DNA of 64,000 nt from assembly GCF_038008685.1 (NCBI RefSeq), contig NZ_JBBOZQ010000001.1:3658001-3722000 (forward strand), in the 5' to 3' direction. Numbering within the stretch: position 1 is the stretch's first letter; every line of letters begins with the position of its first letter. The translations under genes were made by a program, and so were the position numbers. The DNA is from Lysinibacillus sp. FSL W8-0992. GTDB taxonomy: Bacteria; Bacillota; Bacilli; Bacillales_A; Planococcaceae. This document shows positions 11,006-46,784 of this stretch, piece after piece. The notes under the pieces were generated by a model. That model made no database searches and was not told the DNA's origin. It was given only the letters and a program-made list of their open reading frames with translations.

Positions 11006-11689
11006 TTAAGGATAATGAATAATACGTACTTGCACATTATGTCTGCCGTATTTTGTTGCTACTTCTTCAGATTCTACTAGAATATCTAACTTATAACCTT
11101 TGATGGCTCCTCCTTTATCTGCTGAAATAGCTCTAAATGATTCATATGGTGTCTTTATTTCTACAATAGTTCCTAATGGAAGTACTGATGGATCCACCGC
11201 TACAATCCTGAACCCATTATAATAATTAGTTTCACGAACATTAATGCCCGTTACTGTAATACCACTACAACCTTTGCAATCGGGACCATAATATGATGCA
11301 TTAAATTTCATCCACTTTTTAGTGTTTTGTTTTTGTTTCTCTTGGTTGCTGATTGTTTGAACTTTCTCTTTAGAAGACGGATTCTTACTTTGTTCAACTA
11401 GCAAGATTTTTTCTTTTCTAATCATAGCATCATGTTTCAACCTCTGCTTTTCCTTTTCTATTTGTAATTTTTCTTGCCTTAAAGTTATTGCTTTACTACG
11501 AATCATTTTCATAGAGGTTTCTAACTTGATCTTTGGGGAATTTTGTAATAGTTCTTCACCATTATGACTGCTTTTATGTAGTTTTTTATCTTCCAAGGTA
11601 AAATTCATTAAAATAAAAAGTAGTAATAATATAAACGTTATTTTATATACATTCATTAAAATACCTAGATGCTTCAACAGAAAAACCAC
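11006..11689 (-). CDS. Membrane-anchored 3D-domain protein (cell-wall active)
   Basis: A 227-aa protein with an uncleaved-looking N-terminal helix (residues about 13-30), a charged Gln/Lys-rich coiled coil (50-125), and a C-terminal 3D domain (about 130-227). The three aspartates are visible in VDPSVLPLG, ADKGGAIKG and KLDIL. In B. subtilis (YocH, YuiC) and in MltA, this double-psi beta-barrel acts on peptidoglycan. The frame opens at GTG 11689; ATG 11656 (MNVYKITF) is an alternative and both have weak RBSs. It is last in the leftward operon with the LexA box, so it may be made on SOS induction and help lysis or release; that role is inferred. Confidence 0.75.
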   Translation of the reverse strand: MVFLLKHLGILMNVYKITFILLLLFILMNFTLEDKKLHKSSHNGEELLQNSPKIKLETSMKMIRSKAITLRQEKLQIEKEKQRLKHDAMIRKEKILLVEQSKNPSSKEKVQTISNQEKQKQNTKKWMKFNASYYGPDCKGCSGITVTGINVRETNYYNGFRIVAVDPSVLPLGTIVEIKTPYESFRAISADKGGAIKGYKLDILVESEEVATKYGRHNVQVRIIHYP

Positions 11690-11779
11690 CGTATAATCCC
11701 AACCTTTTCAATTAATTCATCTAATATGGTAGTTTTATTTCGGTTCTTATTATGTATTATATTTATTAAGTCTTATGTA

Positions 11780-11968
11780 TTAACTATTTTTGATTAAAAT
11801 ATTAATAGTCTTTAAAAATGCTTCTACAGTTTTAAGTGTTTCTATTTCTAAATGTTCCATTTCCGCTGAAATCATTAAATTTAATTTGCCCATTTCCTGG
11901 TATGCTAAAGCCATTGCATAACGATCAACTTTATTTCTATTTAAATTTCTATTGTTGGCAGCCTTCAT
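11780..11968 (-). CDS. Hypothetical small protein, SOS operon
   Basis: A 62-aa protein of unknown function, rich in Asn, Met and Leu, predicted mostly helical. The frame opens six codons earlier at a GTG, but AAGGAG is spaced for the ATG at 11968 (MKAANNRN). It lies between the 95-codon gene and the 3D-domain gene in the operon read from the LexA-box promoter. No recognisable domain. Size and composition would suit a regulator of the adjacent repressor, but nothing shows that directly. Confidence 0.6.
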   Translation of the reverse strand: MKAANNRNLNRNKVDRYAMALAYQEMGKLNLMISAEMEHLEIETLKTVEAFLKTINILIKNS

Positions 11969-12003
11969 TTTGCTCCTTCCCTTCACCTTAGCAGTAATTC
12001 AAA

Positions 12004-12282
12004 TCATTCCACATATACCTGTTTTTCTATAAAATCAATTAGCTTATTCAGCCTTTCCAATGTTTTTTCTTTTTCTGACTGAATTTGTAATTGTTCTATG
12101 TGCTTTGTAATATCTACCAACTTTATTTGAAATGCTTGACTCTTATGCAAAAAGTCTTTCATATTATTGTCACTTTCAAACACTCTTCCTTGATTAATAG
12201 CACCAAAAATATAACCAAAATCTAACGTCAATTCTTTTAATAACTTATTTATCGTATCCATATAAACCCCAACCTTTGTCAT
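12004..12282 (-). CDS. Hypothetical coiled-coil protein, SOS operon
   Basis: About 92 aa, unknown function. The second half (IKLVDITKHIEQLQIQSEKE onward) is a heptad-rich helix. The start is unclear: GTG 12291, ATG 12282 with an AAGAAGTGAT-like site, or ATG 12261 with a GGGG site. Second gene of the leftward operon downstream of the LexA box. Confidence 0.6.
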   Translation of the reverse strand: MTKVGVYMDTINKLLKELTLDFGYIFGAINQGRVFESDNNMKDFLHKSQAFQIKLVDITKHIEQLQIQSEKEKTLERLNKLIDFIEKQVYVE

Positions 12283-12358
12283 TAGTATCACTTCTTTAAT
12301 TTTAAATTATTTCATTTAAATAATTCCGTTATTTCAATAGATTCTATATTAAGCGTTA

Positions 12359-12823
12359 TTAATTTATCTTCTCTAGTATAATATGTCCTGGATAGTAGCT
12401 ATTTAAATATTCCTTTAGACTATTTAAACATGTAATACTATCATCAATAATCGACTTTCTTAAAAAGCCATTATATAAATAAATTATATTTTTAAGCTCC
12501 ACGACACAAAATAAATTTTCTTGATTATCATCCAATTGAACTAAACTATCATATTGAATATCTATACTTTGTGATTGTTGATAGATAAATTTTGTATCAT
12601 CAACATCTTTAATTAATTCTAGTTCATCCTCATTCCATGTATCCATTAGTATTAAACTCGATACAGAACTATCCATACATTTACATTCTAAAATATTTCC
12701 CCCCTCATCGCTCAAAATAACATTTGTAATTCCACCGTTAAAGTCTTTCAATAACTCGTTTGAAATATTACTTTCATTAAAAAGAACTAACTCTAAAATA
12801 GCTGTTGTTTGTAAATCATTCAT
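12359..12823 (-). CDS. Hypothetical acidic protein, first gene of LexA-box operon
   Basis: A 154-aa strongly acidic protein with mixed alpha/beta character; I recognise no family. The ribosome site AGGAGG is strong. It is the first gene after the promoter holding the perfect LexA box, so it should be among the first products after DNA damage. In prophages this position is often held by an antirepressor; with the MrpR-like repressor encoded next door, an antirepressor role is a reasonable but untested guess. Confidence 0.65.
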   Translation of the reverse strand: MNDLQTTAILELVLFNESNISNELLKDFNGGITNVILSDEGGNILECKCMDSSVSSLILMDTWNEDELELIKDVDDTKFIYQQSQSIDIQYDSLVQLDDNQENLFCVVELKNIIYLYNGFLRKSIIDDSITCLNSLKEYLNSYYPGHIILEKIN

Positions 12824-12887
12824 AATAAAACCTCCTAGTATTACACTAAACTAACATATTTTTCTCAACCATATTAGATTTGTCCTT

Positions 12888-12917
12888 ATCTTATCACGAA
12901 CAGATGTTCGTTTACAA
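12888..12917 (-). promoter_or_regulatory. LexA-controlled promoter of the leftward operon
   Basis: On the minus strand TTGTAA (12912-12917) and TAAGAT (12888-12893) are 18 bases apart, and the spacer holds the 14-bp palindrome CGAACAGATGTTCG (12897-12910). It equals the DinR/LexA consensus of Bacillus (CGAAC-N4-GTTCG) without mismatch. LexA bound there would block polymerase; RecA-stimulated LexA cleavage would release the operon. The rest of 12824-13113 has no gene. Confidence 0.85.
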
Positions 12918-13088
12918 GTTTATTTTAGAGAATTTTTACATTTTATCTAATGTTCAATTTAAAAATTGCGCCTAAAAACAACAGCACGCTGTTTTTGACT
13001 AGAGCATTAGTATTTATTGAGCTACCAATCGTTTAACCTAGTAAGCACAATCCAACCCACTAATAATTGTTTACTTAAAAATCTGCAA

Positions 13089-13113
13089 TAAAAAAAACTG
13101 GTATTCACCAGTT
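13089..13113 (-). terminator. Terminator of the MrpR-like operon
   Basis: On the minus strand AACTGGT and ACCAGTT form a seven-pair hairpin with a four-base loop directly after the stop codon, followed by T8. It isolates the repressor operon from the LexA-box promoter downstream. Confidence 0.85.
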
Positions 13114-14097
13114 CTATAGCTCAATATTAAAGTGTCCATAGTTTTTTCTCATAAAATCAAAATCTAATTTATGTTTAAGAACAGAATAACTTACATACTT
13201 GTTATCTTTGTTCGCAAAACCAGTATCATATTTAATTGCGACTTTATCAAGTAGTTCTTTATTTACTATTTTTATTTCATTATCTTTTATCATGTCCCAT
13301 ATATACCACATCATTCCTGAGATCTGTATTGTACTGGCAATTAAATTATTATTATCAAAAACTGTTTTTGCTAATTCCAATGCTCTATTCCCGAAGGAAG
13401 CTCTCAGTTGAATATCGTTACTATTTACATTTGCTTTTTTAAAGATATAGGTATTGTCAGAGAAGTATTTTTGGCCTTGTTTAGGGATTAAACTAGTAGA
13501 CGATACTTTGTCCAGTTTTTCAAGCTTCCAATAAAGATCTTCTGTAATATTTATTTTTCTTCTACAGCCTTTACTCGTCAACTTAGCAAAATAATTTCCG
13601 TTTTCACTACTTAAATCCTCCATTTTTAAATTTAATATTTCGCTATACCCTTCTCCTTTTATTCCCTCAAATAAACATAATAAAAATACCGCATGTCTTT
13701 GGTCGTCAAATAAACGCATATAAGTTAGTAATTGTTCTCTTGTGTATCTGACAATCGACGCTTTAAAAACAAATCTACTACAGTATTCCATATCAATGAT
13801 GCTCGGTAACCTTTGTGAACGATTTTTTGTATGTCCGTTCATTATTGCCCAATCTATATATCTAGAAATAAAACCTATGGACGCACTTAACGGTTGTGGG
13901 CTAGGAGATTTCAAACTATAAAATAACTCTTCTAACTCTACTTTATTCATATCAAAAATATCTTTATTTTTTTGATTTTCAATTTGAGTTGCTTTATTGA
14001 AGAGTGAGAAATACGTAGTTAAACTATTATCCTTTATATCTAAAGATGTTAAATACCATTCCTTAATATCCTTATTAAATACATTATCTTTCAGCAT
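13114..14097 (-). CDS. MrpR/YopR-like phage repressor, inactive tyrosine-recombinase fold
   Basis: A 327-aa protein with an N-terminal SAM-like/core-binding region (residues 1-110, with SASIGFISRYIDWAIMNGHT) and a C-terminal recombinase-like domain. The stretch CLFEGIKGEGYSEILNLKME (about 141-160) corresponds to box I of tyrosine recombinases, but the catalytic Arg is missing. Where a HxLRH box is expected there is GMMWYIWDM, so strand exchange is unlikely. This pattern fits the SP-beta master repressor MrpR (YopR), which has an integrase fold but works as a repressor. GAGGTG precedes the ATG. It is cotranscribed behind the DGQHR gene (15-base gap). Best guess: repressor of the tail operon. 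A degenerate integrase is the alternative. Confidence 0.75.
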   Translation of the reverse strand: MLKDNVFNKDIKEWYLTSLDIKDNSLTTYFSLFNKATQIENQKNKDIFDMNKVELEELFYSLKSPSPQPLSASIGFISRYIDWAIMNGHTKNRSQRLPSIIDMEYCSRFVFKASIVRYTREQLLTYMRLFDDQRHAVFLLCLFEGIKGEGYSEILNLKMEDLSSENGNYFAKLTSKGCRRKINITEDLYWKLEKLDKVSSTSLIPKQGQKYFSDNTYIFKKANVNSNDIQLRASFGNRALELAKTVFDNNNLIASTIQISGMMWYIWDMIKDNEIKIVNKELLDKVAIKYDTGFANKDNKYVSYSVLKHKLDFDFMRKNYGHFNIEL

Positions 14098-14112
14098 CAG
14101 TTATACACCTCA

Positions 14113-15426
14113 TTATTGAATTAAATTCTCAAATACTTTCTGAAGTTTTTTTCTATTTTGAACGCTTAGTCCCCCATATTGGAGAATGCCAAGCTCTTCC
14201 CATAACGGATTATGTATAGAGAAGTCTAGCTGATTTAAATAATTAGCCAAACTTTCAAATGCGATATTTTTGGCATGCATTTGTGCAGCTAATTCAATAT
14301 GTCCATTAAACATTCGATTTTTAAACATTAAAGAGCTTTTATCATTTAAATGCTCTTTATAATAAGCAAAAAGATACATCATATATTCATTAATTACTTT
14401 CGCTATCTTTACTACCTCTATACGACTTTCTAATTCAAAGCTATTATTGATTGCATTTGATAGCTCTGAAAAAGTAACTACCTCACCATATGAATATTTA
14501 ATATTTGAATTAGAAGTGATTCTTCCCTTCAATTCCCCTTCCACCTTTAATTCAATCACAACTTCATCAGATAACTTATCCTTAGCCAATTCTTGCAATC
14601 TTGGTTTTGGAATCGGATTAGCTTTTGCCATATCTACTTGAACTCTTTTACATTGTGCTTCTGTCATATTTGAAATGATGACAATCATATTACCTTCTAG
14701 CTCGGTCTTTTTCATGTAGGCATTATAGATAGAGAAAGTTCGATGTGCACCATCTAAAACATCCAATATAGTTCCTTCTAACAATGTCAGTGTTTTTTCT
14801 TTTTCATCGTAAAATAATTCTAGTCCTTCATTTCCAGTACCAACTTTTGCATTATATCTCAAAGTAGAAGTAATCAAATCTCCATTTAATGTTTGTTTTT
14901 CAATCTCACGTAATGATTTCGGATTTAGATTCATCACTTCTATAATTTCGTTTTTTAACTTTTTCTTTTTTGCTTGCCGCTGGATATTGGGGTTATACAT
15001 CGTAATGCCACTCATCCATAGCTTACCGATAATTGCATTTGGAATAACTACAGTAAATTCGTTATGTCCTGTTTTTATTACATTTTCAAATGAATAGGGT
15101 AACGTAATAATATCTTCATATGGAGATTCTCTTATATACAATCTTAATTCTTTGATTTCAGAAGGATTTAGCCATTCTTCAAGCCAATTACAATTATATT
15201 CTTCAAGTTTTAAATTAAATTGTTCACCTAATAATAATAACTCAAATAAATTTGCTTCACTTAGCACATCTACATCGTTAATCATTTCTAAAATATTTCC
15301 TATATTAATGTTATGTCTATTAAGTTGAATGGAAATCTCATCTAAAAATACATCATTTTGAACGATTAATGGAATTTTCGCTTTAATTTCTTCAACTAAT
15401 AATTCGCGGGTTTTACCAATTTTCAA
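14113..15426 (-). CDS. DGQHR/DndB-like domain protein
   Basis: A 437-aa protein with DGAHRTFSIY at residues 225-234, the variant of the DGQHR motif found in DndB-like and ParB-like proteins. It is followed by IISNMTEAQCKRVQVDMAKA, matching the usual helix after that motif. The C-terminal half is helical. DndB is a regulator of DNA phosphorothioation, but no other dnd genes are present, so a regulatory or DNA-binding role in the element is more likely. In SP-beta the gene next to yopR is yopQ, of similar size; whether they are homologous needs an alignment. TTG start with GGGAGTG. First gene of the repressor operon. Confidence 0.7.
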   Translation of the reverse strand: MKIGKTRELLVEEIKAKIPLIVQNDVFLDEISIQLNRHNINIGNILEMINDVDVLSEANLFELLLLGEQFNLKLEEYNCNWLEEWLNPSEIKELRLYIRESPYEDIITLPYSFENVIKTGHNEFTVVIPNAIIGKLWMSGITMYNPNIQRQAKKKKLKNEIIEVMNLNPKSLREIEKQTLNGDLITSTLRYNAKVGTGNEGLELFYDEKEKTLTLLEGTILDVLDGAHRTFSIYNAYMKKTELEGNMIVIISNMTEAQCKRVQVDMAKANPIPKPRLQELAKDKLSDEVVIELKVEGELKGRITSNSNIKYSYGEVVTFSELSNAINNSFELESRIEVVKIAKVINEYMMYLFAYYKEHLNDKSSLMFKNRMFNGHIELAAQMHAKNIAFESLANYLNQLDFSIHNPLWEELGILQYGGLSVQNRKKLQKVFENLIQ

Positions 15427-15504
15427 ACTTTACACTCCCTTGTTTTTCCATTAATTATCTAATTATTTCAATAGTACCATATGCGATATTAAAATGTAAC
15501 TACA

Positions 15505-15518
15505 ATAAATGAATTAAT
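15505..15518. repeat. 14-bp motif shared by two control regions, copy 1
   Basis: ATAAATGAATTAAT occurs here in the divergent region between the repressor operon and the late regulator, and again at 16773-16786 upstream of the tail operon. On the minus strand this copy lies immediately downstream of TTGCAA (15525-15530), a possible -35 of the repressor operon. In AT-rich DNA a chance match is possible, but both copies are in control regions of the same element. Candidate operator. Confidence 0.35.
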
Positions 15519-15638
15519 TAAATTTGCAAACTTTTATTACCCTTAATAATTATTATTTTTATATCTCTATTATATAGGAAGAAACAATATAAAATTATAT
15601 ATTATAGGATTCTAATAAATTAATTAATTAAAAAAAAG

Positions 15639-15666
15639 TTGAATTATTATTTACTGCTATTATAAT
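15639..15666 (+). promoter_or_regulatory. Sigma-A promoter of the HTH/zinc-ribbon regulator gene
   Basis: TTGAAT (15639-15644), 16-base spacer, TATAAT (15661-15666), 46 bases upstream of the start codon at 15712. The remainder of the 285-base divergent interval is extremely AT-rich with TAATTAATTAA runs; no further gene is seen. Confidence 0.65.
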
Positions 15667-15711
15667 ATGAATAAGTGATATCTAATTTATTACATTAAAG
15701 GAGATGAAGGT

Positions 15712-16221
15712 ATGGCCCACCAAACAGCTAAAGATACAAAATACAATCAGTTAGTATTATCAGATGAAACAGTAATTAAGGAATTATTGACGTTTAGGGG
15801 TTCGATAGATGATACGATGTTTAATGGAAATCAAGTAGGATGTACTTCGAGCACTTTAAAAATGAATACAGATGTTATCAGTTTATTCGCCGATTTAGAT
15901 AAATTAATAAAAAAAAGTTTGGACGAAGAACAGATTGAATTACTTAAATACATAGCTAAAGACTTCTCTTATCATAAAATAGGACAGCTTTTAGAAATTC
16001 CTATTAAAACAGTTGGCCGAAGATTGAATACAATTTGTTCACGAATAAAACAAGAAAACGATCGACAATGGAGAAAAGTCGTATATACGCAAAAATTAAA
16101 CTTAAAATCAAAACGATGTAGCAAATGCAAAGAAGTTCTTCCTGCTACGGATGAATTTTATAGTATAAACAACAGTAGCAAAGATTTATATCATTCACAG
16201 TGTAAAAAATGCAAAAAGTAA
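15712..16221 (+). CDS. Sigma-like HTH plus zinc-ribbon regulator
   Basis: A 169-aa protein. Residues 70-113 (LDEEQIELLKYIAKDFSYHK then IPIKTVGRRLNTICSRI) look like a sigma-70 region-4/LuxR-type helix-turn-helix. The C-terminus holds two CxxC pairs, C136-C139 and C164-C167, a probable zinc ribbon. AAGGAG precedes the ATG. It is transcribed divergently from the repressor operon and stands in front of the tail genes, the usual place of a late-gene activator. Function is inferred from position and domains. Confidence 0.7.
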   Translation: MAHQTAKDTKYNQLVLSDETVIKELLTFRGSIDDTMFNGNQVGCTSSTLKMNTDVISLFADLDKLIKKSLDEEQIELLKYIAKDFSYHKIGQLLEIPIKTVGRRLNTICSRIKQENDRQWRKVVYTQKLNLKSKRCSKCKEVLPATDEFYSINNSSKDLYHSQCKKCKK

Positions 16222-16296
16222 TGCGAAATATATTTGGGCGAAAATAGTAGTTTTTAAGATACACTAGTCAACTTAATAAGTAGAAGGAGCAATCAT

Positions 16297-16767
16297 ATGA
16301 AACTACAATTACCTCACGCTACCGTAGAACTGAATTTAAATCTCCCGATAGAAGAAAGAGTTCAGTATGTAAGTTGTTTGTTAGAAAATGAAAAATTGAT
16401 TTATAAAGGGGAAGAAATCTCTTTAGAGTTATATTTTAGCCTCACAGCAAATACATACAATACGTTAATTCTGTTAGACATGATAGGCTATTATATAACT
16501 AAAGGATATTTTACGAAAGAGGAATTATTATTAGAAGAAGAAAATTTAATATTTATTAAAGAGACGAAAAAGCGCAATAAAAGGCGTAGAGAAATTGCCA
16601 AGTTATTTAAAGGTCAAATAGCGCAGCATCGTTTGCAAGATAATTACGTATTGTCTCATTATAAACAAAAAGAAATTAAAAAAGGATCAATTCGACATAA
16701 TACATTTTCTAATACTTCTTATTTAGAAGCAATCACATTTGGAATCGAAGAAGCAGAGGAAGATTAA
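16297..16767 (+). CDS. Hypothetical protein
   Basis: A 156-aa protein of unknown function. N-terminal half is mixed with a hydrophobic helix (SLTANTYNTLILLDMIGYYI); the middle is strongly basic (KETKKRNKRRREIAKLF). AGAAGGAG precedes the ATG. It lies between the HTH/zinc-ribbon gene and the tail operon and may be a second regulator or an assembly factor. The basic patch suggests nucleic-acid contact, no more. Confidence 0.6.
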   Translation: MKLQLPHATVELNLNLPIEERVQYVSCLLENEKLIYKGEEISLELYFSLTANTYNTLILLDMIGYYITKGYFTKEELLLEEENLIFIKETKKRNKRRREIAKLFKGQIAQHRLQDNYVLSHYKQKEIKKGSIRHNTFSNTSYLEAITFGIEEAEED

Positions 16768-16772
16768 ATCCG

Positions 16773-16786
16773 ATAAATGAATTAAT
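16773..16786. repeat. 14-bp motif shared by two control regions, copy 2
   Basis: Second exact copy of ATAAATGAATTAAT, six bases after the stop codon of the preceding gene and about 210 bases before the first tail gene. See copy 1 at 15505. Confidence 0.35.
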
Positions 16787-16811
16787 ACAAAATACATAAT
16801 GAAATTTTCAA

Positions 16812-16961
16812 ATGTATCTATGCACTTGCATGGATACATCATGAAGGTTTCATATTAAAAAAGTTTATCACATTAGTACATATCGAAAAATTAGAAATTA
16901 ACAATATATAGTAGGCGGTGTTAATTAAATGAAATAATATAAAATACAAATTGAAACCTTC
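16812..16961. promoter_or_regulatory. Structured control region ahead of the tail operon
   Basis: Two inverted repeats. ATGTATCTATGCA (16812-16824) faces TGCATGGATACAT (16827-16839) with one mismatch, nearly continuous dyad symmetry over 28 bases. GAAGGTTTCA (16843-16852) and TGAAACCTTC (16952-16961) are perfect complements 99 bases apart. No gene fits in 16768-16998. This is the natural place for the late promoter and its operators; I cannot name a clear -35/-10 pair. Confidence 0.45.
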
Positions 16962-16998
16962 GAAATAAACCCTCTTTAGGAAGTGAGGACAAAGGAGA

Positions 16999-17538
16999 AT
17001 GAAAATTGTAAATAATTTATCTAAGTTTTATCAACAATTGAAAAATGATGAAAAATTACTTCGTTTACTGTATTACTTGCCAAAAGATTCATTAGACGAC
17101 CCGCTTGATGAGTCAAAATTGGAAATCTCTCAATTACCTAATAAAGATTTAATTATAAACAACATATTAGTTATTGGGGATAAAACAAGCGATTTAATAA
17201 TAGATTCTGCGTTTTGTCGTATTTGTTTATTTACTGGTCCACGAACACCTCAAAAACATTATCTCAAAACAACAAATCTTTTTACTGAAAACCCCTATTC
17301 TAGCACGCAGCAATATATTTTTGATATTTATACACCGAATACTATTAATAATGTAGATTTTCGACTTGATTGGCTCGGCGAATCCTTGAATGAAGCACTC
17401 TTTCAGGAGAATCTCATAGAGTTTAAAGAGTTAAGATTCTACAGCGGGATGCCGCTTTTAAATATGCCTGACGGTTTTGTAGGATATCGTTGGATTTTTA
17501 CTATCCCTTCCAGCCAAAAAACACGAGGTTTAAAATGA
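16999..17538 (+). CDS. Tail-operon protein, possible tail terminator/completion factor
   Basis: A 179-aa protein, first gene of the tail operon. No family is recognised. The central part (DFRLDWLGESLNEALFQENL) alternates beta strands and helix, as in tail-terminator-like proteins, and the position before the tube gene fits, but the assignment rests on context. GAGG lies about 12 bases upstream of the ATG, and another GGAG is one base from it. The stop overlaps the next start (ATGA). Confidence 0.55.
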   Translation: MKIVNNLSKFYQQLKNDEKLLRLLYYLPKDSLDDPLDESKLEISQLPNKDLIINNILVIGDKTSDLIIDSAFCRICLFTGPRTPQKHYLKTTNLFTENPYSSTQQYIFDIYTPNTINNVDFRLDWLGESLNEALFQENLIEFKELRFYSGMPLLNMPDGFVGYRWIFTIPSSQKTRGLK

Positions 17539-18308
17539 TGAGCATTTCAACAATAAAAGCATTTGGCAAGCCAACCCCCTATAAGGGACTCCATCTTCAT
17601 CCTATTCGAATGGTAGATGCTGATGAATTTTATGATTGCGTGCAATGTTTACTCTTGCCTAAAAGCGACTTTCAAGAACCCGAAGTAATTAGAATGTCTT
17701 ATTTCATGTTTCTCCTCGCCCTCTCCCAAAATAATGATGGTAAGGATTTAGTATCCAAGCTAATTGCTCTATATCGCTTAATCTTTAAAACAGAAAACAT
17801 ACAGTTAACCGTCAATGAAAAAGGCATGGCATTTATTATTGTCGACGGTATATCATTACACGAACGTGATTTTGATAAAATCAAGACCATTATTAGCGAG
17901 CAAAACCTTATCGATTTAGATGATGAATTTATCGATCCAGGTACTAAAAAAGCGATTCAAGAGGCTCGAGCATTCATGGCAAAAAGGAAAACAAGACAAG
18001 CAGATATAGAACAGCAAATAGTAGCCTACCATTGTAAATCTGGGCTCCCCTACCACGAAATAAAAAACTTAACACTTTATCAATTTCATAAAGGGTTAAT
18101 AAGAATGGATTATATGGTTAGTAGCGAAGCAATTTTAAATGCTCGTTATACAGGTATGGTTGAATTTAAAAATGAGCAAGACCTTCCTCATTGGTTAGGA
18201 CATATAGAAGAACCGAAGAAAAATGAAGATGTCATTATGACAAAGACTGCATTCGATAAACAAATGAAACAGCTAGGACTTGATCCTAGTATAAATAAAA
18301 AACAATAA
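17535..18308 (+). CDS. Tail-operon protein of unknown function
   Basis: About 257 aa from the ATG at 17535, which overlaps the stop of the previous gene (ATGA). The frame stays open upstream to 17490 but inside the previous gene. Residues about 160-230 (YHCKSGLPYHEIKNLTLYQF) are helical and recall tail-assembly proteins in which a short chaperone-like helix bundle binds the tape measure. I do not recognise a named family. It directly precedes the tube protein. Confidence 0.6.
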   Translation: MMSISTIKAFGKPTPYKGLHLHPIRMVDADEFYDCVQCLLLPKSDFQEPEVIRMSYFMFLLALSQNNDGKDLVSKLIALYRLIFKTENIQLTVNEKGMAFIIVDGISLHERDFDKIKTIISEQNLIDLDDEFIDPGTKKAIQEARAFMAKRKTRQADIEQQIVAYHCKSGLPYHEIKNLTLYQFHKGLIRMDYMVSSEAILNARYTGMVEFKNEQDLPHWLGHIEEPKKNEDVIMTKTAFDKQMKQLGLDPSINKKQ

Positions 18309-18330
18309 TCTAAAAGGATGGTAATTTATT

Positions 18331-19329: not shown

Positions 19330-19342
19330 GTGAATTAATAAA

Positions 19343-19373
19343 AAAAGGGTAGAGCATAGTTCTCTACCCTTTT
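19343..19373 (+). terminator. Intra-operon terminator after the tube gene
   Basis: GGGTAGAG (19347-19354) pairs with CTCTACCC (19362-19369), extended by A/T pairs, and is followed by TTTTATTT. It lies between the tube gene and the next tail gene, with no new promoter evident. It probably lowers expression of downstream genes. Confidence 0.8.
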
Positions 19374-19396
19374 ATTTCAATGAAGGAGTCGAAAAA

Positions 19397-35571: not shown

Positions 35572-35587
35572 GAAAGGAGGATGCTCT

Positions 35588-39250: not shown

Positions 39251-39322
39251 GTAGAATTATCCAGCATTTTTATGGAGCTAAGTTTATTCTCTTAATACAC
39301 ATAAGAAAGGAACCAATTATTA

Positions 39323-40516
39323 ATGGCAAATTTCGGAGATACAATGAATTTACCTGAAAAAGGATGGAAGAGGATAGAAGAAACTGATCCTTGTTTCACT
39401 TATGAAGGTGTATGGGGTTCAAGGTCAAACTCTTCCTATAGCGGTGGGAGTCAAAAAACTCAGTCTAATAATATTCTTGGAAACAAAATTAAGTTTAAAT
39501 TTTTTGGTTCTAAAATACGAATAATCACATCTATCTATCCTACATACACACCAAAAGTAAAAATTACTATAGATGGAGTTGAAGAATATTATTCTCTCCA
39601 AGGTACTCAAGTGAACATAAGCCTTGTCTATGAAAAATTGAACTTACCTTTAAATTTACACTATGTTGAAGTTGAAAAAGTAACTAATGGTGGTTATGAT
39701 CCCGATTTTATATGGGATGCAATTGATATAGATGCTGATGGATTTGTTGCTGATATTAACTATAAGCCTAAAAGACTTATTCTCAAAAATTCAATCATTG
39801 ATGAACACTTCTCTCTATCTGATAAAACTATCATCCATTTACCTAACGCAGAAAAAAAAACTATAGCTCAATTGGGAATTTGGGAAGAAAATGAAATCAT
39901 TTTAGATGCTCCCTTTGACAAACACTATTATATTAATAATTCACCTATTAATAATGTGAATTGCAAGATATTTACACAAAATATTAGCAAAATAAATAAC
40001 TTGAGAGTTAAAGAAAACAATGAAAACAAAAATTTTGAGCCTGTTTATTATTGGTATGATTTTATCATGACATCCAATAGTTCACCAGAACCATTGATAG
40101 CTAGTGGAAGTAGTCTATATAGCTCCAACTATGATTATTATAAAGTTTTTAATGGTACAAATGTTAATTGGTCAGACTCATGGACAAGTAGTAGTCCTCA
40201 AGCCTACATTCAACTAGATTTCAATGAAATTAAGAAAATTAATATGTTTAGCATTACCACATGGAATGAACCTAATAGTACTTCTTCCCCTAAGAGATTT
40301 TCTATTACGGCTTCAAATAATGGTGTAGACTTTGTTTCCATTTTTAATGAAATAACCTTTACAGAAGAATGGCCCTATAATACAGAAAAAATTTTCATAT
40401 TAGATGAAGTTAAAAACTTTAGATTTTTTCGCATAAATATAGAAGAATCGTTCGGAGCCCCCTATGTGTCTATAGGGAAAATTAAGGTTGGCTATAAAAA
40501 AGAGGTGAACAACTAA
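39323..40516 (+). CDS. Discoidin-domain receptor-binding protein 4
   Basis: A 397-aa protein. Residues 1-140 form a lectin-like beta-sandwich of a kind common in phage fibres (FTYEGVWGSRSNSSYSGGSQ, KFFGSKIRIITSIYPTY, KITIDGVEEY). The C-terminal part (about 255-395) is a discoidin domain (SSNYDYYKVFNGTNVNWSDS, YIQLDFNEIKKINMFSITTW, FSITASNNGVDFVSI). AAAGGAA before ATG. Together with its three neighbours it makes a set of paralogous adhesins. Confidence 0.7.
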   Translation: MANFGDTMNLPEKGWKRIEETDPCFTYEGVWGSRSNSSYSGGSQKTQSNNILGNKIKFKFFGSKIRIITSIYPTYTPKVKITIDGVEEYYSLQGTQVNISLVYEKLNLPLNLHYVEVEKVTNGGYDPDFIWDAIDIDADGFVADINYKPKRLILKNSIIDEHFSLSDKTIIHLPNAEKKTIAQLGIWEENEIILDAPFDKHYYINNSPINNVNCKIFTQNISKINNLRVKENNENKNFEPVYYWYDFIMTSNSSPEPLIASGSSLYSSNYDYYKVFNGTNVNWSDSWTSSSPQAYIQLDFNEIKKINMFSITTWNEPNSTSSPKRFSITASNNGVDFVSIFNEITFTEEWPYNTEKIFILDEVKNFRFFRINIEESFGAPYVSIGKIKVGYKKEVNN

Positions 40517-42829
40517 ATGACAACAATAGAAAAAACAATGATACAACATGGTGTTGCATGGTTTGGATTTGATGAGATAAGCAACAATACTTTGGATTTA
40601 CTAGGTATAGGTAATTTAGGAATAATTACGAACGCAACAAGAGTTGACGGGTGGAATGGTAAAGGATATGCAATTAAATCAAGTGCCATCAATCAGAGGG
40701 TTTTATTTAATGGTGCAATCATTCCAACTAGAGACTTTTCCATTAGATTTAAAATAAAATGTTTGCCAAACACTCTTGATAGCTATTTCCTTTCTACTGC
40801 AGGAAGTTTTGGAAGCTCAGATAAAGGAGTTAGCTTATATATTGATACAGCAGGCTATCTATATGTAACATTTTTTAATGGAAGTTCACATGAAAACGTT
40901 ATTAAATCAACAATTAACATTGCTCAGAACATATGGACTGATATATTAGTGTCTAAGTCAGAATTAGAAACTATAATCTATATTAATGGCGAGCTTAACG
41001 TAAGATTACAAAACAGTGTATCGACATACATCCATACCAAACCTTTGTCTTTACTTAATTGTGATGCTTTTTTAGCAACTGCAGGAAGATGGTTAAATGG
41101 GCAAATTGATGATTTACAAATCTATAATAAGGCACTTTCCCCTTTCGATTTCACTCAAAAACGCTTAGCATTCAAAACAGCTGCTAACAAGAATCTCGTT
41201 TTTCTAGATGATAGAATCAAGGAAATTCCCAACTTAAATGAAAACACCCTGTTAAATCACGGTGGAATTCTAAAGGAAATTGACTTTGCTACCGATAAAC
41301 TACCTCTTGACCTAACTAGAACATATGTGAATTATGAGACTATTAGCGCAAGCGGCACTAGCATAGTAAACACCATCCCCCCAACAATTGCAAAAGACTT
41401 GTTAGGAGTAACGCCTCAAGTTGTCTATTACACAGATTCTGATGCCTCACAAATAGTTGTTGAAACAGAAGTTGAACCATTTTCTGTTTATGACTATCTC
41501 TCAGAAAAACCTGAAATTTTAGTCTACACAGAATCCACCGACGATATCATCGTATCCACAACTACCGAACCATTCGACATTTACGATGAATTCGGTGATA
41601 GTGTCGAGGTGCTTTACTACACAGACGATACAGAGGTCACAAATGCTGACTTAATTTTAGAAGCAAACTACTCCCCTCTCGATGAATTAGAAGGCGATTT
41701 CGAAGTTGTGACGTGGACTGATGAAGCACCTGAGACTGCACAGAGAGTGCTTGAAATGCAAGCTATACCTAAACCTCAGTTCATTAAGCTGGTCAACCCG
41801 AAGCGGATTTATGGTGCTTTGGATGATGTTATAGTTAATGATATCTCTCAATCCTATCGGGATGAAGCTCGTTATTTTGTTTCTGGTACAGACACTACAA
41901 AGTGGTATGTATGGGATAAGGTGTTTAAAAAATTTGTCATTACGGATGCTTCTAGTGAAGAAGCTATTATTGCAAATGGCATGAAACATACAGACTTAAA
42001 TAACATTTCTGACACAGAATGGCGGACTTGGGATGAGCAGCACTTAAATATCGGGATTTTCTTAAAAGACAATCCTCGTGATACGATCGTTTCTGTTGTT
42101 GAAAATATTTCATATGAAGATTACCTTCCTCGCCATACAACAGCAATTCAAGACACAAGTTTATATATTTTAAATACAACAGCAAAAATAGATATTGCTT
42201 TCAACGGAAATGTTCTTAAAGGTGTGTTAAGTGATGATGATTTAACACGTGTTCAATATCGGGTATTGCTGAACAACCGCCACTTCTACCCTTCTGATGG
42301 TAGCTTTACAAAGCTAGGTGAATCTCCTCAAAACATTGAATTAGTAATCCGAAGTAAGGACATTAAAATTGATGATTGGAATACTTTAAAAGTGGAGTTT
42401 AAAGACTACTTTGGTACTACAGATTATTGGTCAACAAACTTTATGGGTACCTACTCTGGACTTATGTTTAAAGATGTCCATGGAGAATACTTTTCTAATG
42501 AAATAGGAGACGTATTAAAGTATCTTGATTTTGGTGTCATTATCGCAGGACAAACGACAATCGAGCATGAGGTAATCCTAAAAAATCAATACGGCTATGA
42601 TGTTAAAAACGTGCATTTGTTTGCAAATACAGCTAATTTCCCAACCGAAATGACAGTTGAATTCAGTCAAAGTCAGTCACCTTTTATACCTCATCCAGAT
42701 TTAAAGCTGAGTGGTGTGCTTGCAAATAATGCTGAAATGCCCTTCTTTATTCGGTTAAAAACAAAATTAGGTTCAACGCCTGACGCAAATGGATCGTTTG
42801 ACATTATCGTGAGAGCAGATAAAGCCTAA
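40517..42829 (+). CDS. LamG-type adhesin with acidic repeats
   Basis: A 770-aa protein, ATG start, GAGGTG upstream overlapping the end of the previous gene. Residues about 20-215 are a concanavalin-A/LamG-like domain (FSIRFKIKCLPNTLDSYFLS, GQIDDLQIYNKALSPFD). Residues about 290-415 hold three to four imperfect units of about 38 residues beginning VVYYTDSD, ILVYTEST, VLYYTDDT, VVTWTDEA. The C-terminal half contains TTKWYVWDKVFKKFV and a long beta-rich tail. Base composition shifts towards the host average near 41.3 kb, suggesting a recombination joint inside the gene. Confidence 0.68.
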   Translation: MTTIEKTMIQHGVAWFGFDEISNNTLDLLGIGNLGIITNATRVDGWNGKGYAIKSSAINQRVLFNGAIIPTRDFSIRFKIKCLPNTLDSYFLSTAGSFGSSDKGVSLYIDTAGYLYVTFFNGSSHENVIKSTINIAQNIWTDILVSKSELETIIYINGELNVRLQNSVSTYIHTKPLSLLNCDAFLATAGRWLNGQIDDLQIYNKALSPFDFTQKRLAFKTAANKNLVFLDDRIKEIPNLNENTLLNHGGILKEIDFATDKLPLDLTRTYVNYETISASGTSIVNTIPPTIAKDLLGVTPQVVYYTDSDASQIVVETEVEPFSVYDYLSEKPEILVYTESTDDIIVSTTTEPFDIYDEFGDSVEVLYYTDDTEVTNADLILEANYSPLDELEGDFEVVTWTDEAPETAQRVLEMQAIPKPQFIKLVNPKRIYGALDDVIVNDISQSYRDEARYFVSGTDTTKWYVWDKVFKKFVITDASSEEAIIANGMKHTDLNNISDTEWRTWDEQHLNIGIFLKDNPRDTIVSVVENISYEDYLPRHTTAIQDTSLYILNTTAKIDIAFNGNVLKGVLSDDDLTRVQYRVLLNNRHFYPSDGSFTKLGESPQNIELVIRSKDIKIDDWNTLKVEFKDYFGTTDYWSTNFMGTYSGLMFKDVHGEYFSNEIGDVLKYLDFGVIIAGQTTIEHEVILKNQYGYDVKNVHLFANTANFPTEMTVEFSQSQSPFIPHPDLKLSGVLANNAEMPFFIRLKTKLGSTPDANGSFDIIVRADKA

Positions 42830-42860
42830 TCACAATACAATGTGATAAGGAAGTGAAAAT

Positions 42861-44783
42861 ATGAATGAGGACAGTAATAATGAAATAGTTAAGGATCTTC
42901 CACTACATCCAAAAACCGATGAAATCGTTAACGGAAGCTTGCATGATCATTTGCTAGGAACTGAACCTGCTCCTAACCTTAGCAATAGTTTTAAGGCAAA
43001 GTATAGTTTAATTGCGGTTGACAACGCTGATATTCATACAGAAATTATTTCAAGACCTGAAAAAAATGCAGATGTTGATACGGAAATTATCCCTCGTGCC
43101 TATAATGAAACTTCGAAAGAAATACACATCAACATTATGTACCGGGGTAATGCTGAAGTGCTAACTGAGATTCAACCAATTGGATATAACAACCTTTTAG
43201 CTGAAATTGAAGTTCCACCACATAATAGAATGTCTGCCATCTATGAAGTTCAACAACCACCAATTATTACAGATAGTTTCACCCCGACTCAAGACGCTTT
43301 TACACGTGAAAAAACAGAATATCAAACCATTAACTATGGTGAGTATAAATCTATGTTGGCAGGTCAAAGTCGTGATGACATTTGGCGATCATTTATACAA
43401 TTTGATGTGACTTCAATCAATCCATCGTATGTTTTAACAAGTGCATATGTAAGGCTGTACTACAGTGGTAGTATTCCAAAAGGAATTACGCTTGAACTTT
43501 TAAACGCTGGTAGTAAATGGTCTGAATATAGTATTACGCACTTAAATCGCCCTACGCCTATTCAGTTAATTACAAAAGAATTCACTATTAATGAACAAGC
43601 AGGCTACTTAGAATTCAATGTTTTCGATATTGTAAAAAGCTGGGTTGCGCTTCATCAAGTGAATAATGGTTTTATCATTCGTGTCTCGAATGAAATTACC
43701 GATGGATATGTGACCTTCCTTACAAGAGAATCACAGTTACCTCCTGAACTAGTAGTAGAGTATTTTGACTCTACAATATTTAGTTTTGGCAGAAGTCAGC
43801 ACATTACTGAAATCTTTATTTATAAGTCCCTGCCCTCGGATAAAGACACAGAAATCACCGTTGGTTCAACATTTGATAATTCTGAGTACCCAACATATCT
43901 TTACGTTCATCGCGTTGAAGTGCCTCTCGATGAAGATATTTTCGTAGAAATCAAAGTTAATAAACCAAATATTCCTGCTGAGCTAGTGGTAGCAATTCCA
44001 GATGAAAGTAATATTTTGACTGAGATTAGCGTTATAGTATCAAAAGATCGTACCATTTGGTCGGATATAACTATTAATAAGCCAAGCATCCCTATCGAAA
44101 TAATAGCCTCCCGAATAAAAGATGACGAGCATGAAACAGAATTAGTTATTAATAAACCTTTTATAGAAGCTGAAATCACTATTCCTACACATAGGGATAG
44201 CGATATTATAACTGAAATTGATATTAATACTATTTTTTCGAGTAATGTACATACAGAAATTCTTCTAAGTAAAGATACAATTCCTACAAAAATTTCTTCA
44301 CGAGCTCTTGAAGATCATAATTTATATACAAAAATTGCTGTTTCAAAACCAAAGATTGAAGCGGAAATCGTGGTAAAACATCGAGACGATATTTGGGTTG
44401 AAATTGAACCCAATATTATTAGTGATCTTACAACTGAGATTGTTGTATCTAAGCCTGAAGTTGAAGGTTGTATTGCTATTAGAGTACAAAAAGATTTTGA
44501 TTCAAATGCAGAAATTTTTGTCTCTTACGTAAATGATATTAATACTGAGATTATAGCTCGCAAAATCAGCCAATTACCTACAGATATTGATATTAAAGCT
44601 GTTAGTCAAACTGACACAAAAATATCTGTATCAAAGCCATATATCCCTACTCAAATTACAATTCCAACTTGGGATGAATCAGATATTTTAACGACAATTA
44701 AACCGAGAATATTAACTGTATACAATATTTATACTGTCATTAGGGTAAATGGCGGCGTTTCAGGCTATGCATTTATTATGTAA
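42861..44783 (+). CDS. DNRLRE-domain protein with many short TEI/KP beta repeats
   Basis: A 640-aa protein. Residues about 135-305 are a DNRLRE-like beta-sandwich (SFTPTQDAFTREKTEYQTIN, WRSFIQFDVTSIN, VVEYFD). The rest, before and after it, is built from short repeats of the type (D/H)I.TEI.V(S)KP.I..EI, for example DIFVEIKVNKPNIPAELVVA, IVVSKPEVEGCIAI, KISVSKPYIPTQITIP, at least a dozen units. Regular alternation of beta strands suggests an extended fibre or solenoid. GGAAGTG before ATG. Probable long appendage; function unproven. Confidence 0.68.
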   Translation: MNEDSNNEIVKDLPLHPKTDEIVNGSLHDHLLGTEPAPNLSNSFKAKYSLIAVDNADIHTEIISRPEKNADVDTEIIPRAYNETSKEIHINIMYRGNAEVLTEIQPIGYNNLLAEIEVPPHNRMSAIYEVQQPPIITDSFTPTQDAFTREKTEYQTINYGEYKSMLAGQSRDDIWRSFIQFDVTSINPSYVLTSAYVRLYYSGSIPKGITLELLNAGSKWSEYSITHLNRPTPIQLITKEFTINEQAGYLEFNVFDIVKSWVALHQVNNGFIIRVSNEITDGYVTFLTRESQLPPELVVEYFDSTIFSFGRSQHITEIFIYKSLPSDKDTEITVGSTFDNSEYPTYLYVHRVEVPLDEDIFVEIKVNKPNIPAELVVAIPDESNILTEISVIVSKDRTIWSDITINKPSIPIEIIASRIKDDEHETELVINKPFIEAEITIPTHRDSDIITEIDINTIFSSNVHTEILLSKDTIPTKISSRALEDHNLYTKIAVSKPKIEAEIVVKHRDDIWVEIEPNIISDLTTEIVVSKPEVEGCIAIRVQKDFDSNAEIFVSYVNDINTEIIARKISQLPTDIDIKAVSQTDTKISVSKPYIPTQITIPTWDESDILTTIKPRILTVYNIYTVIRVNGGVSGYAFIM

Positions 44784-44809
44784 ACAATGGAGAAAAAGGA
44801 GAAAGAACT

Positions 44810-45256
44810 ATGATTATTAAAAATTACGAAATTAGTGAATTATATGCTTTTCTATTTAACCTCATTTTAAAAGGGAAAGAGTCACGAATGCGCACGCGCT
44901 TTCTCAAACTATTAGAAGATCAGCTAAATCTTGTAAATCAAGAAAGACAGCAATTAGTTGCTGATTATGCCGAAAAAGATGAAAATGAGGAAATTTTATA
45001 TACCAAGGAATTTGTAGATGAAAAAGAAATTGAAGTCCCTATTTTTAGTCCAGAGGCTGAAAAAGAAGTGCAAAGCCAAATTTTAACGTTACTTCAGGAA
45101 GATTTTATTATTGACGAGACTGCAGATAAAATTGAAATGCTACAGGTTTTACAAGAAATACTGCTGAATTTAGATTTAGAGTTCACTGGTAAAAAAGCAA
45201 CTTTATATAATAGGTTTTGTGAAATTTTCGAGGACATACAATTACTTGAAAATTAA
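44810..45256 (+). CDS. DUF1617-like phage protein
   Basis: A 148-aa helical protein. The opening (IKNYEISELYAFLFNLILKG then KESRMRTRFLKLLEDQLNLV) matches the pattern of DUF1617 proteins, which sit near the end of tail modules of Bacillota phages; function unknown. AGGAGAAAG before the ATG. The third intra-operon terminator follows. Confidence 0.6.
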   Translation: MIIKNYEISELYAFLFNLILKGKESRMRTRFLKLLEDQLNLVNQERQQLVADYAEKDENEEILYTKEFVDEKEIEVPIFSPEAEKEVQSQILTLLQEDFIIDETADKIEMLQVLQEILLNLDLEFTGKKATLYNRFCEIFEDIQLLEN

Positions 45257-45271
45257 TTGAAGCATTCTTTT

Positions 45272-45308
45272 AGGATAGTTGTGGACATACAATCCACTCT
45301 ATCCTTTT
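45272..45308 (+). terminator. Terminator between tail and lysis modules
   Basis: GGATAG (45273-45278) with CTATCC (45299-45304) and GTGGA (45281-45285) with TCCAC (45293-45297) form an interrupted stem, then TTTTATAATTTTTT. The frame crossing it from TTG 45257 is therefore not the real start of the next gene. Confidence 0.8.
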
Positions 45309-45328
45309 ATAATTTTTTAAAGTTGGTG

Positions 45329-45745
45329 ATGAATGTGCAAAGCGAAAAACATGGGGAACGATTGGCTTCTGTAGAAGTAGAAATGAAGAATCATGAAAAA
45401 CGAATTTCAAAATTAGAAGGTAATCATGAATTATTACAGCGTTTAACAGTCGTTTCAGAACAACAACAAGAAATGAATAAATACCAACAAATTCAATTAA
45501 ATCGAATGGATAAAACCTTCAATAACATCAACATTAATCTTACTAAACTAAATATGTCACAAGTAGAGCTGCAAGATGATGTAAAAGGTATTGGTAAACG
45601 AGTAGATAGCATTGAAGAAGACTTAAAATATGAATCTGCAAAGGATAACCTTTCAATTAGTGACACAATCAAACAATATCTACATTGGTGGATACTTATC
45701 CCACTTACAATTATAGGTGCAGAAATTATTAAGTGGCTAGGTTAA
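45329..45745 (+). CDS. XhlA-like membrane-anchored coiled-coil protein
   Basis: A 138-aa protein from ATG 45329 (GGTG just before; upstream extension crosses a terminator). Residues 10-105 are a coiled coil (VKGIGKRVDSIEEDLKYESA); a single C-terminal membrane helix (HWWILIPLTIIGAEIIKWLG) ends the protein. This is the layout of XhlA/BhlA-type proteins that sit before holin and amidase in PBSX and SP-beta. Helps lysis. Confidence 0.75.
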   Translation: MNVQSEKHGERLASVEVEMKNHEKRISKLEGNHELLQRLTVVSEQQQEMNKYQQIQLNRMDKTFNNININLTKLNMSQVELQDDVKGIGKRVDSIEEDLKYESAKDNLSISDTIKQYLHWWILIPLTIIGAEIIKWLG

Positions 45746-45766
45746 TAAAGAAAGGAATGGTATATC

Positions 45767-46063
45767 ATGAAAATCAATTGGAAAGTCCGTATTTGTAACC
45801 CTCAATTTTGGATTACATTCGGATTATCAATTATTACCCCTTTATTCGCCTATTATGGCATCACTGGAGCTGATTTGACTACTTGGGGAAGTGTATGGAC
45901 ATTAATGGTCAACGCGCTTTCTAATCCCTACGTACTTGCTTTAATGGGCGTTAGTATCTATAACGCCGTTTTAGATCCTACAACGGCCAATCTCAGTGAC
46001 TCTCAAAGAGCATTGGCATATGTAAAGCCGAAAAGAGATGATTTTAATGACAATAAATATTAA
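45767..46063 (+). CDS. Holin, phi LC3 type
   Basis: A 98-aa protein with two membrane helices (FWITFGLSIITPLFAYYGIT and about 48-65) and the family ending YNAVLDPTTANLSDSQRALA (residues about 64-85) typical of phi LC3 holins. It would form lesions in the cytoplasmic membrane to release the amidase. AAAGGAATGG before ATG. The next gene starts inside its last codons. Confidence 0.88.
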   Translation: MKINWKVRICNPQFWITFGLSIITPLFAYYGITGADLTTWGSVWTLMVNALSNPYVLALMGVSIYNAVLDPTTANLSDSQRALAYVKPKRDDFNDNKY

Positions 46064-46784
46064 ACAACTTTTAGTAACACCCTCAAAATATAATCTTAAA
46101 TGTCCATATACCATGGATGCTCAATATTTAACGATACATAATACAGCGAATGATGCATCAGCAGCAAATGAAATCAATTATATGATTAGTAATAACCATC
46201 AAGTATCCTACCATTTTGCGGTAGACGATCAGGAGGTAATTCAGGGATTGCCTTTAAACCGGAATGGGTGGCATTGTGGAGATGGTAAAGGTCATGGAAA
46301 CATGCAATCAATTGGTATTGAAATTTGTTATTCTAAATCAGGTGGTGAACGTTATGCAAATGCTGAAAAAATAGCTATTCAATTCATAGCACAGCTTTTA
46401 CAAGAACGTGGTTGGAAAATTGACAGAGTAAGAAAGCATCAAGATTGGAGTGGTAAATATTGTCCGCATCGCATTCTTGATGAAGGAAGATGGGCATCAT
46501 TCTTAAATAGAGTTCAAAAAGAACTTGATAAATTGACTAGCGATAAAGGAGGCTTCACCATGTCACAATATGAAGAATTAAAAGCTGACTGTCAAATAAT
46601 ATTTCAACAATTAGTATTCATTAATACTATGTTAGGGCTAGTGGAACGACCTGTTGACAAATCGCATGAAGCAGGATGGACATGGTGTCAAGAACAAGGT
46701 TTATTAAATGGGCAAAACCCACAAAAGCCACTTACAAGAGAGCAATTTTCAACAGTTCTTTATAGATTAAATAATAAAAAATAG
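46047..46784 (+). CDS. N-acetylmuramoyl-L-alanine amidase (endolysin)
   Basis: About 245 aa. Residues 1-155 are an Amidase_2 domain: zinc ligands H31 (TIHNTAN), H131 and C139 (HQDWSGKYCPHRI), 8 apart as in T7 lysozyme. The C-terminal 90 residues (TMSQYEELKA... then WTWCQEQGLLNGQNPQKPLT) resemble an SLH-like or cell-wall-binding tail of prophage amidases. ATG 46047 has GAGATG at a good distance; ATG 46038 is too close to its RBS. It cleaves the amide bond between MurNAc and L-Ala and ends the element. Confidence 0.9.
   Translation: MTINIKQLLVTPSKYNLKCPYTMDAQYLTIHNTANDASAANEINYMISNNHQVSYHFAVDDQEVIQGLPLNRNGWHCGDGKGHGNMQSIGIEICYSKSGGERYANAEKIAIQFIAQLLQERGWKIDRVRKHQDWSGKYCPHRILDEGRWASFLNRVQKELDKLTSDKGGFTMSQYEELKADCQIIFQQLVFINTMLGLVERPVDKSHEAGWTWCQEQGLLNGQNPQKPLTREQFSTVLYRLNNKK

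Follow-up and report, generated by a model that had tools for sequence, protein, structure and literature searches.

Headless, flexible phage tails that act as bacteriocins are represented by the F-pyocins and, reportedly, by rhizoviticin, both of which belong to Gram-negative hosts and derive from phage ancestors other than the one considered here. Among Gram-positive bacteria, the Listeria monocin is encoded by 17 genes and governed by a CI-like repressor that is inactivated by the metalloprotease MpaR, as described in an excerpt of PMC6872733. In phage SPbeta, a box for the DNA-damage (SOS) response lies between yopS and yopT, beside yopR (excerpt of PMC8270828). The way in which SOS removes the YopR/MrpR repressor 'remains to be determined', in the words of a passage of PMC8612738. 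A passage of PMC10769878 mentions a parallel study, devoted to the repressor operon, of possible relevance to this step. Here, we describe a tail locus of ~36 kb from Lysinibacillus sp. FSL W8-0992 (G000 below), contained in a stretch of 64,000 nucleotides (G000:C1:3658001-3722000, hereafter the window, to which all coordinates refer) of a 4.69-Mb genome. On its gene content, the locus is very probably a selectively maintained, headless F-type tailocin of SPbeta-family descent with exchangeable baseplates. A first-pass annotation had already read it as a tailocin from an SPbeta-like ancestor, and the fixed site, the lack of cognate heads and the ancestry described below all support that reading, with killing inferred from the tailocin class.

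The locus interrupts a chromosomal interval between a flotillin/NfeD-like gene pair (8750-10858, minus strand) and a chromosomal 126-amino-acid (aa) gene (46926-47306). Its bounds were set by blastn against G024, the closest genome by flanks, which carries ~75 bp at the same junction.

10919..46876, no strand assigned: whole insert, compared with the uninserted site of ~75 bp in G024, whose flanks align to 10246-10919 and 46876-47360.

A minus-strand arm holds accessory genes, a 154-aa gene, a MrpR/YopR-type repressor and a YopQ homologue, and a plus-strand arm holds a 169-aa sigma-like regulator, a 156-aa protein, tail genes, adhesins, a holin and an amidase. No att-like direct repeats of at least 8 bp are common to both insert ends, and no RNA families or tRNAs were found within the 64-kb window. 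We read the site in all 32 genomes of the genus Lysinibacillus compared. Nine of the 32, each a species-level genome, have a complete headless locus there, all on the same chassis; five (G000, G006, G016, G042 and G044) have what we call baseplate type A, and four (G001, G005, G009 and G047) have another baseplate, with a Tal protein only 36-39% identical. This comparison across Lysinibacillus, which the first-pass annotation had proposed as a check, bears it out, and no head-bearing phage was seen at the site in any of the 32 genomes. Named carriers in the genome-contig scan are L. parviboronicapiens BAM-582, L. sphaericus OT4b.31, L. xylanilyticus DSM 23493, L. sp. ZYM-1, L. cavernae and L. 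macroides DSM 54. Across 261 genomes of the order, repressor relatives of at least 76% identity are confined to the nine carriers, and the other matches at E 1e-20 or better number eight, at 27-33% identity.

The plus-strand arm encodes a complete non-contractile tail set (terminator, tube, tape measure, Dit and Tal) together with its own lysis cassette of holin and amidase. From terminator through lysin, the genes follow phage order, the same as in the SPbeta-like phage Perkons:

16999..17538, plus strand: tail terminator, which caps the tail; homologue of YomW and Perkons ORF200, with a fold matching lambda gpU.
17490..18308, plus strand: YomV/Perkons ORF199-like tail protein, 272 aa as listed (orthologues 251-267 aa).
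18331..19329, plus strand: tail tube protein; match to the tail tube of PDB 8k98 (1.2e-11) and a C-terminal Ig-like Big_2 domain (3.2e-4, just below cut-off).
19397..19888, plus strand: YomO/Perkons ORF197-like protein, from the Perkons comparison.
19977..26411, plus strand: tape measure with M23 peptidase, 2144 aa (phrog_4211 5.5e-115; PF01551).
26411..27007, plus strand: Dit-like distal tail protein, 58% to Perkons ORF190.
26997..27665, plus strand: baseplate protein, homologue of Perkons ORF189.
27676..28317, plus strand: protein with a Dit-type C-terminal domain (PF20753, PF22768), homologue of Perkons ORF188.
28323..32105, plus strand: Tal, tail endopeptidase and minor tail protein of the YomG family (PF06605, PF24049, phrog_6211).
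32118..32531, plus strand: PAAR tip protein (PF05488 1.7e-14).
32558..35571, plus strand: four baseplate proteins, the first three of which (387, 269 and 198 aa) match Perkons ORF183, ORF182 and ORF181.
35531..40516, plus strand: hypervariable adhesin cassette, with F5/8 type C (discoidin) domain PF00754 in three of four genes, one match being below cut-off.
40517..44783, plus strand: large fibres with Laminin_G_3 and CBM96 carbohydrate-binding domains, homologues of Perkons ORF174 and ORF173.
44810..45256, plus strand: phrog_1401 protein, homologue of Sundance gp34.
45257..45745, plus strand: coiled-coil XhlA-like lysis accessory protein (PF10779 2.4e-5, weak and below cut-off).
45767..46063, plus strand: holin (PF04531 2.2e-20).
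46038..46784, plus strand: amidase endolysin (PF01510 7.6e-22).

A single open reading frame (ORF) lies between tube and tape measure, and no tail sheath was matched among the tail-region ORFs scanned. In all nine genomes the tail genes start at the terminator, in the window exactly so, and the head module appears to have been cut away at the head/tail joint. Profile scans and the Perkons comparison recognised no head, packaging, integration or replication gene in the locus, and Perkons connector genes ORF201-204 have no homologue there. Three 'head' labels suggested by PHROG families were rejected: the one for 18331-19329 because of the 8k98 tube match and a match to a Perkons tail-region ORF, and those for 26997-27665 and 33721-34530 because both match Perkons tail-region ORFs. 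The complete tail set, lysis cassette, intact frames and headlessness noted in the first-pass annotation are thus confirmed at 10919-46876. Tail and switch are both of the SPbeta family by comparison of their genes, which identifies the locus as a predicted descendant of an SPbeta-family phage, as that annotation had supposed. The tube is homologous to the solved tube 8k98, whose family triggers the defence protein DSR2; producers could be sensitive to their own tube. In Perkons (L020), a reverse transcriptase adjoins the fibre genes at 4066-5142, possibly as a diversity-generating element.

The baseplate and the rest of the particle have different histories. Trees of the switch and of the flanking genes agree on G042 with G009, on G001 with G005 and on G000 with G006, and differ in G047, whose placement in the flank tree has a support of 0.32; the flank tree covers eight genomes and leaves out G016, because two of the six flank genes lie beyond the end of its contig. 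In the Tal tree, by contrast, G042 clusters with G044 and the G000 group, whereas G009 joins G047, G001 and G005. The four baseplate proteins at 32558..35571 are present in the five type-A loci, and elsewhere as one weak partial match in G009. A second line of evidence comes from 23 IMG/VR contigs (12.5-39.7 kb, some of them fragments) with a tube 86-95% identical. In 19 of the 23, both repressor and Tal were available, the latter as fragments of 318-700 aa. Among 22 contig pairs with repressors at least 93% identical, Tal is 32-41% identical in nine and at least 96.6% identical in thirteen; the repressors of L143 and L144, for example, are 98.5% identical and their Tal proteins 40.5%, and for L151 and L161 the values are 98.8% and 35.2%. 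These comparisons indicate that the baseplate is replaced on a near-identical chassis, while the switch follows the flanking genes. The SPbeta-like phage of G015 has a Tal 73% identical to that of the window but a tube only 47% identical, which makes phages plausible baseplate donors. Among type-A loci, turnover is fastest in the discoidin adhesins. For G006 against G016, nonsynonymous divergence (dN) is 0.008 for Tal and 0.76 for the adhesin at 36656-37801; over two thirds of its length, this adhesin of G000 shows 32-37% identity to those of G006, G016 and G042. The endolysin also varies, with amidase orthologues in G000, G006 and G016 and an M23-type enzyme in G001.

A small group of genes and sites around the junction of the two arms is predicted to control the locus:

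12359..12823, minus strand: 154-aa LexA-boxed gene, proposed antirepressor, in 9/9 loci at 63-75% identity.
12897..12910, no strand assigned: exact LexA (SOS) box CGAACAGATGTTCG, between the -35- and -10-like sequences (by eye) of the 154-aa gene.
13114..14097, minus strand: MrpR/YopR-family repressor (PF22822, phrog_5830; 26% to SPbeta YopR, alignment A1).
14113..15426, minus strand: YopQ homologue, repressor-operon partner, 28% to SPbeta YopQ over 458 alignment columns.
15505..15630, no strand assigned: two candidate operator repeats ATRAATTAAT, upstream of the 169-aa gene.
15712..16221, plus strand: predicted positive regulator, 169 aa (phrog_5767 1.6e-15), 72-82% in the eight other loci.
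16297..16767, plus strand: conserved 156-aa switch-region protein, in 9/9 loci.

The repressor contains the MrpR core-binding domain (PF22822), and its alignment to YopR extends over 281 positions. At the catalytic positions tabulated for MrpR in a section of PMC10516654, inspection of alignment A1 by eye finds no Arg, His or second Arg in the repressor. Retention of the late catalytic Tyr was considered and rejected, because the repressor has a Lys opposite YopR Tyr304, where the alignment is weak. The protein is accordingly classed, from its alignment, as a predicted catalysis-dead recombinase-fold protein of the MrpR/YopR family. The switch as a whole appears as a stripped-down SPbeta switch. 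The 169-aa regulator has a sigma-factor-like region, and its Cys pairs, identified by eye, suggest a zinc ribbon. The repeat ATRAATTAAT is a candidate for the repressor's operator: it lies upstream of the 169-aa gene in 9/9 loci (at least one copy within 216 bp, and in 8/9 at 80-97 bp), upstream of the terminator gene in 7/9 and upstream of accessory-arm genes in 7/9, and in seven of the nine loci its count was reached by 0/200 approximate dinucleotide shuffles. One more copy, within the 169-aa gene itself, may simply reflect its coding sequence. The repeat differs from the 15-mer that we derived for SPBRE as common to three SPbeta promoters, and the name SPBRE was rejected for it.

An exact LexA box stands at the promoter of the 154-aa gene, which lies downstream of the repressor, in 9/9 loci, between TTGAAA-like and TAAGAT-like sequences (by eye), and 52-90 bp upstream of the gene in 21/21 further contigs that hold it; two more contigs lack the gene, and some contigs may be the same strains as the nine carriers. 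No second exact box lies within 3.5 kb of the switch in any of the nine loci. The perfect 14-base form, CGAACNNNNGTTCG, occurs once in the whole G000 genome, in the locus, with 7 occurrences of the reversed control pattern; the lexA loci of all nine carriers have two imperfect boxes of the form CGAACNNNNGTTT. By its promoter box, the 154-aa gene ranks as a predicted member of the SOS regulon, and the suggestion in the first-pass annotation that the locus has an SOS switch of its own takes a concrete form in this repressor-adjacent gene. The search for the 154-aa gene returned 23 proteins, every named one from Lysinibacillus, and the protein has no Pfam match. Relatives occupy the same place, behind mrpR, in the SPbeta-like phages of G015 (25.9%, E 2e-6 against a small search set) and G018 (22%, E 1e-4 pairwise), and are 54% identical to each other. 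A box with one mismatch precedes their starts by 93 and 107 bp, respectively, adjacent to a TTGACA promoter; sites of this kind number four (G015) and three (G018) in those 19.9-kb stretches. We propose, at about even chances, that the 154-aa protein is an SOS-induced antirepressor of the MrpR-like repressor. The broader proposal we hold to be equally balanced between right and wrong: the 154-aa protein would be the missing SOS-induced antirepressor of the MrpR family, a legacy of SPbeta-like phages retained in a minimal switch; this switch would govern a tailocin spread across the genus, in which the chassis is fixed and the whole baseplate is exchanged, probably with phages. Elsewhere, in another genus of the family, yopP, yopQ and mrpR relatives lie beside an exact SOS box (G149:C22, L123, ~9839).

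Several observations weigh against these proposals and are set out here with the alternatives. The most serious alternative overlaps with our own reading and differs in one step: the tailocin holds, the 154-aa protein has some other SOS role, and SOS reaches the repressor by another route. YopT, the product of the SOS-boxed neighbour in SPbeta, was rejected as a homologue of the 154-aa protein, as there is no detectable homology between them, and the structure model of the 154-aa protein is poor (predicted local distance difference test, pLDDT, of 51) and offers no usable fold. Two findings speak against this alternative: the gene keeps its position beside the repressor, preceded by a LexA-type box, both in the loci and in the two phages, and no other exact box lies within 3.5 kb of any of the nine switches. 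We consider this alternative a real contender, if somewhat short of an even chance. The operator assignment has its own difficulties: the motif was chosen after inspection, and shuffles reached its count in 20/200 cases for G042 and 18/200 for G009. Nor is exchange confined to the baseplate, since the tube and tape-measure trees depart from the flank tree in detail, placing G044 with G009, and the tape-measure tree also puts G001 and G005 with G006 and G016.

A second alternative regards the locus as a decaying SPbeta-like prophage, now without function, whose genes for head, replication and integration are gone. The SPbeta-family genes themselves would fit, and decay does occur in places: G008 keeps fibres, lysis genes and two left-arm genes and has lost the chassis, and G012 and G043 have a lysin scrap alone left at the site. 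With these three remnants and 18/32 genomes without any tail-locus gene between the flanks, the locus is dispensable. In a tree built from three genes of the flanks, carriers are scattered among non-carriers; the locus is thus often lost or turned over at strain level. Even in a carrier, the YopQ homologue of G005 (L059) is split over two frames, the gene being open in the other eight. This homologue is the one exception among 153 orthologue cells (genes of 12300-46800 found in at least four loci, at identity above 55% and coverage above 50%, weaker or shorter matches having been dropped before the count); the other 152 reach 80% of median length. Tape measures are 2000-2153 aa long in the nine loci, though 36-55% identical to that of the window. 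The ratio of nonsynonymous to synonymous substitution rates (dN/dS) is at most 0.51 for every value computed in five genome pairs, with 0.04-0.10 for the repressor, 0.01-0.08 for the tube and 0.14-0.21 for the terminator; many of the dS values lie above 1 and are rough, and some cells gave no value. The headless locus is under purifying selection. Together with the LexA box kept in the nine loci and the 21 contigs, and the terminator as a uniform starting point, this makes decay without function very unlikely. Two unrelated islands of ~17 kb, at G018:C31 (L073) and G045:C21 (L070), lie in the same interval from flotillin to a 253-aa gene, which looks like an insertion hotspot.

A third alternative, which we consider very unlikely, is a split or helper-dependent phage or transfer agent, in which heads from another prophage join the tails. 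The terminator is a natural docking face for a head, and heads might come from elsewhere. Queries with the Perkons (SPbeta-type) capsid, terminase and portal gave no match in the nine carriers; each matched two of the 32 genus genomes, G015 and G018, within ~40 kb of a Tal gene and away from the tail-locus site. No portal is present in any of the 23 IMG/VR contigs introduced above, and among contigs with a tube 52-62% identical a portal occurs in three of four; the exception is a fragment of 6.4 kb. The general families phrog_2 and phrog_12, which we take to be terminase and portal, do match elsewhere in several carriers. G000 has a terminase match with three stops, a weak but intact terminase match beside an intact portal-family match, and three further portal-family matches, one with stops. 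In G009 neither family is matched. In G047 the portal family is likewise silent, and the terminase matches are all stretches with stops. The silence of G009 is weak evidence, since phrog_12 misses the SPbeta-type portal of G018; likewise, phrog_2 finds no terminase in G044. The matches that do occur in carriers lie outside the tail's lineage, and the locus lacks the Perkons connector homologues. The annotation's caution about heads elsewhere in the genome does not tell against its reading, with one caveat: SPbeta-type heads are absent from the nine carriers by these queries, but the unrelated terminase- and portal-family matches of G000 remain, and an unrelated prophage could, though improbably, serve as a chance head donor. 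Two such matches with internal stops, at G000:C1:1780271-1781599 and C1:1233517-1234659, belong to unrelated prophages. The 23 headless tail loci of IMG/VR (L135-L155, L160 and L161) are filed there as viral contigs, so prophage callers may count such loci as viruses.

Finally, a tail-derived device that delivers to eukaryotes such as insect larvae rather than bacteria, suggested by the use of L. sphaericus as an insect biopesticide (excerpt of PMC11245835) and by a weak, below-cut-off Tox-PAAR-like match of the PAAR protein, is extremely unlikely given a non-contractile tail, an M23 domain, a Tal endopeptidase and carbohydrate-binding adhesins common to bacteriophages, and no toxin cargo family above cut-off among the locus proteins scanned.

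The remaining genes form the outer part of the minus-strand arm:

11006..11689, minus strand: accessory protein with 3D domain, cell-wall enzyme-like (PF06725 1.9e-13), in 7/9 loci.
11780..11986, minus strand: 68-aa small accessory gene, in 9/9 loci.
12004..12291, minus strand: 95-aa small accessory gene, in 6/9 loci.

The tailocin reading suggests the following sequence of events. In the undamaged cell, the MrpR-like repressor, together with the YopQ homologue, would keep the 169-aa activator and the tail operon silent by way of the ATRAATTAAT operators, and LexA would shut down the 154-aa gene. Upon DNA damage, LexA would be cleaved and the 154-aa protein made, which likely disables the repressor. 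The 169-aa activator would then start expression of the tail and lysis genes, after which lysis of the producer by holin and endolysin would free tails of ~0.3 micrometre; tail length follows a rule of ~0.15 nm per tape-measure residue. Adhesins would recognise the target, presumably related Gram-positive cells, whose wall would be cut by the M23 domain of the tape measure and the Tal endopeptidase, allowing the tail to depolarise the membrane.

Among the matches listed from open-licence PMC literature, none describes a Lysinibacillus F-type tailocin or an SPbeta-derived tailocin. The locus adds an F-type tailocin lineage to a genus used for insect control, and it reduces the question of how SOS acts on YopR/MrpR to a handful of genes, within reach of a small reporter test. 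In each sequence-level feature compared, the locus agrees with an F-type tailocin. It resembles the Listeria monocin, as far as the excerpt of PMC6872733 describes it, in being a headless, SOS-linked tail locus at a conserved site of a Gram-positive genus, with regulatory, tail and lysis modules. It differs in its length of ~36 kb, in its MrpR-type repressor with a YopQ homologue and a LexA-boxed 154-aa gene, and in its SPbeta-type tail with PAAR and a 2000-2153-aa tape measure; by its predicted regulator it is not a monocin. With the SPbeta-like phages (SPBc2, Perkons and the phages of G015 and G018) it shares MrpR and YopQ homologues, with Perkons the tail gene order, and with the G015 and G018 phages the boxed gene behind mrpR, whereas no head, packaging, integration or replication gene is recognised in it. 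PBSX and the Brevibacillus tail-like bacteriocin are likewise defective-phage bacteriocins of Bacillales relatives; both, however, are contractile, and PBSX has a capsid protein (excerpt of PMC9406221). Set against the F-pyocins and rhizoviticin, the Lysinibacillus locus shows baseplate exchange on one chassis, an arrangement in which evolution keeps particle and switch while swapping the baseplate.

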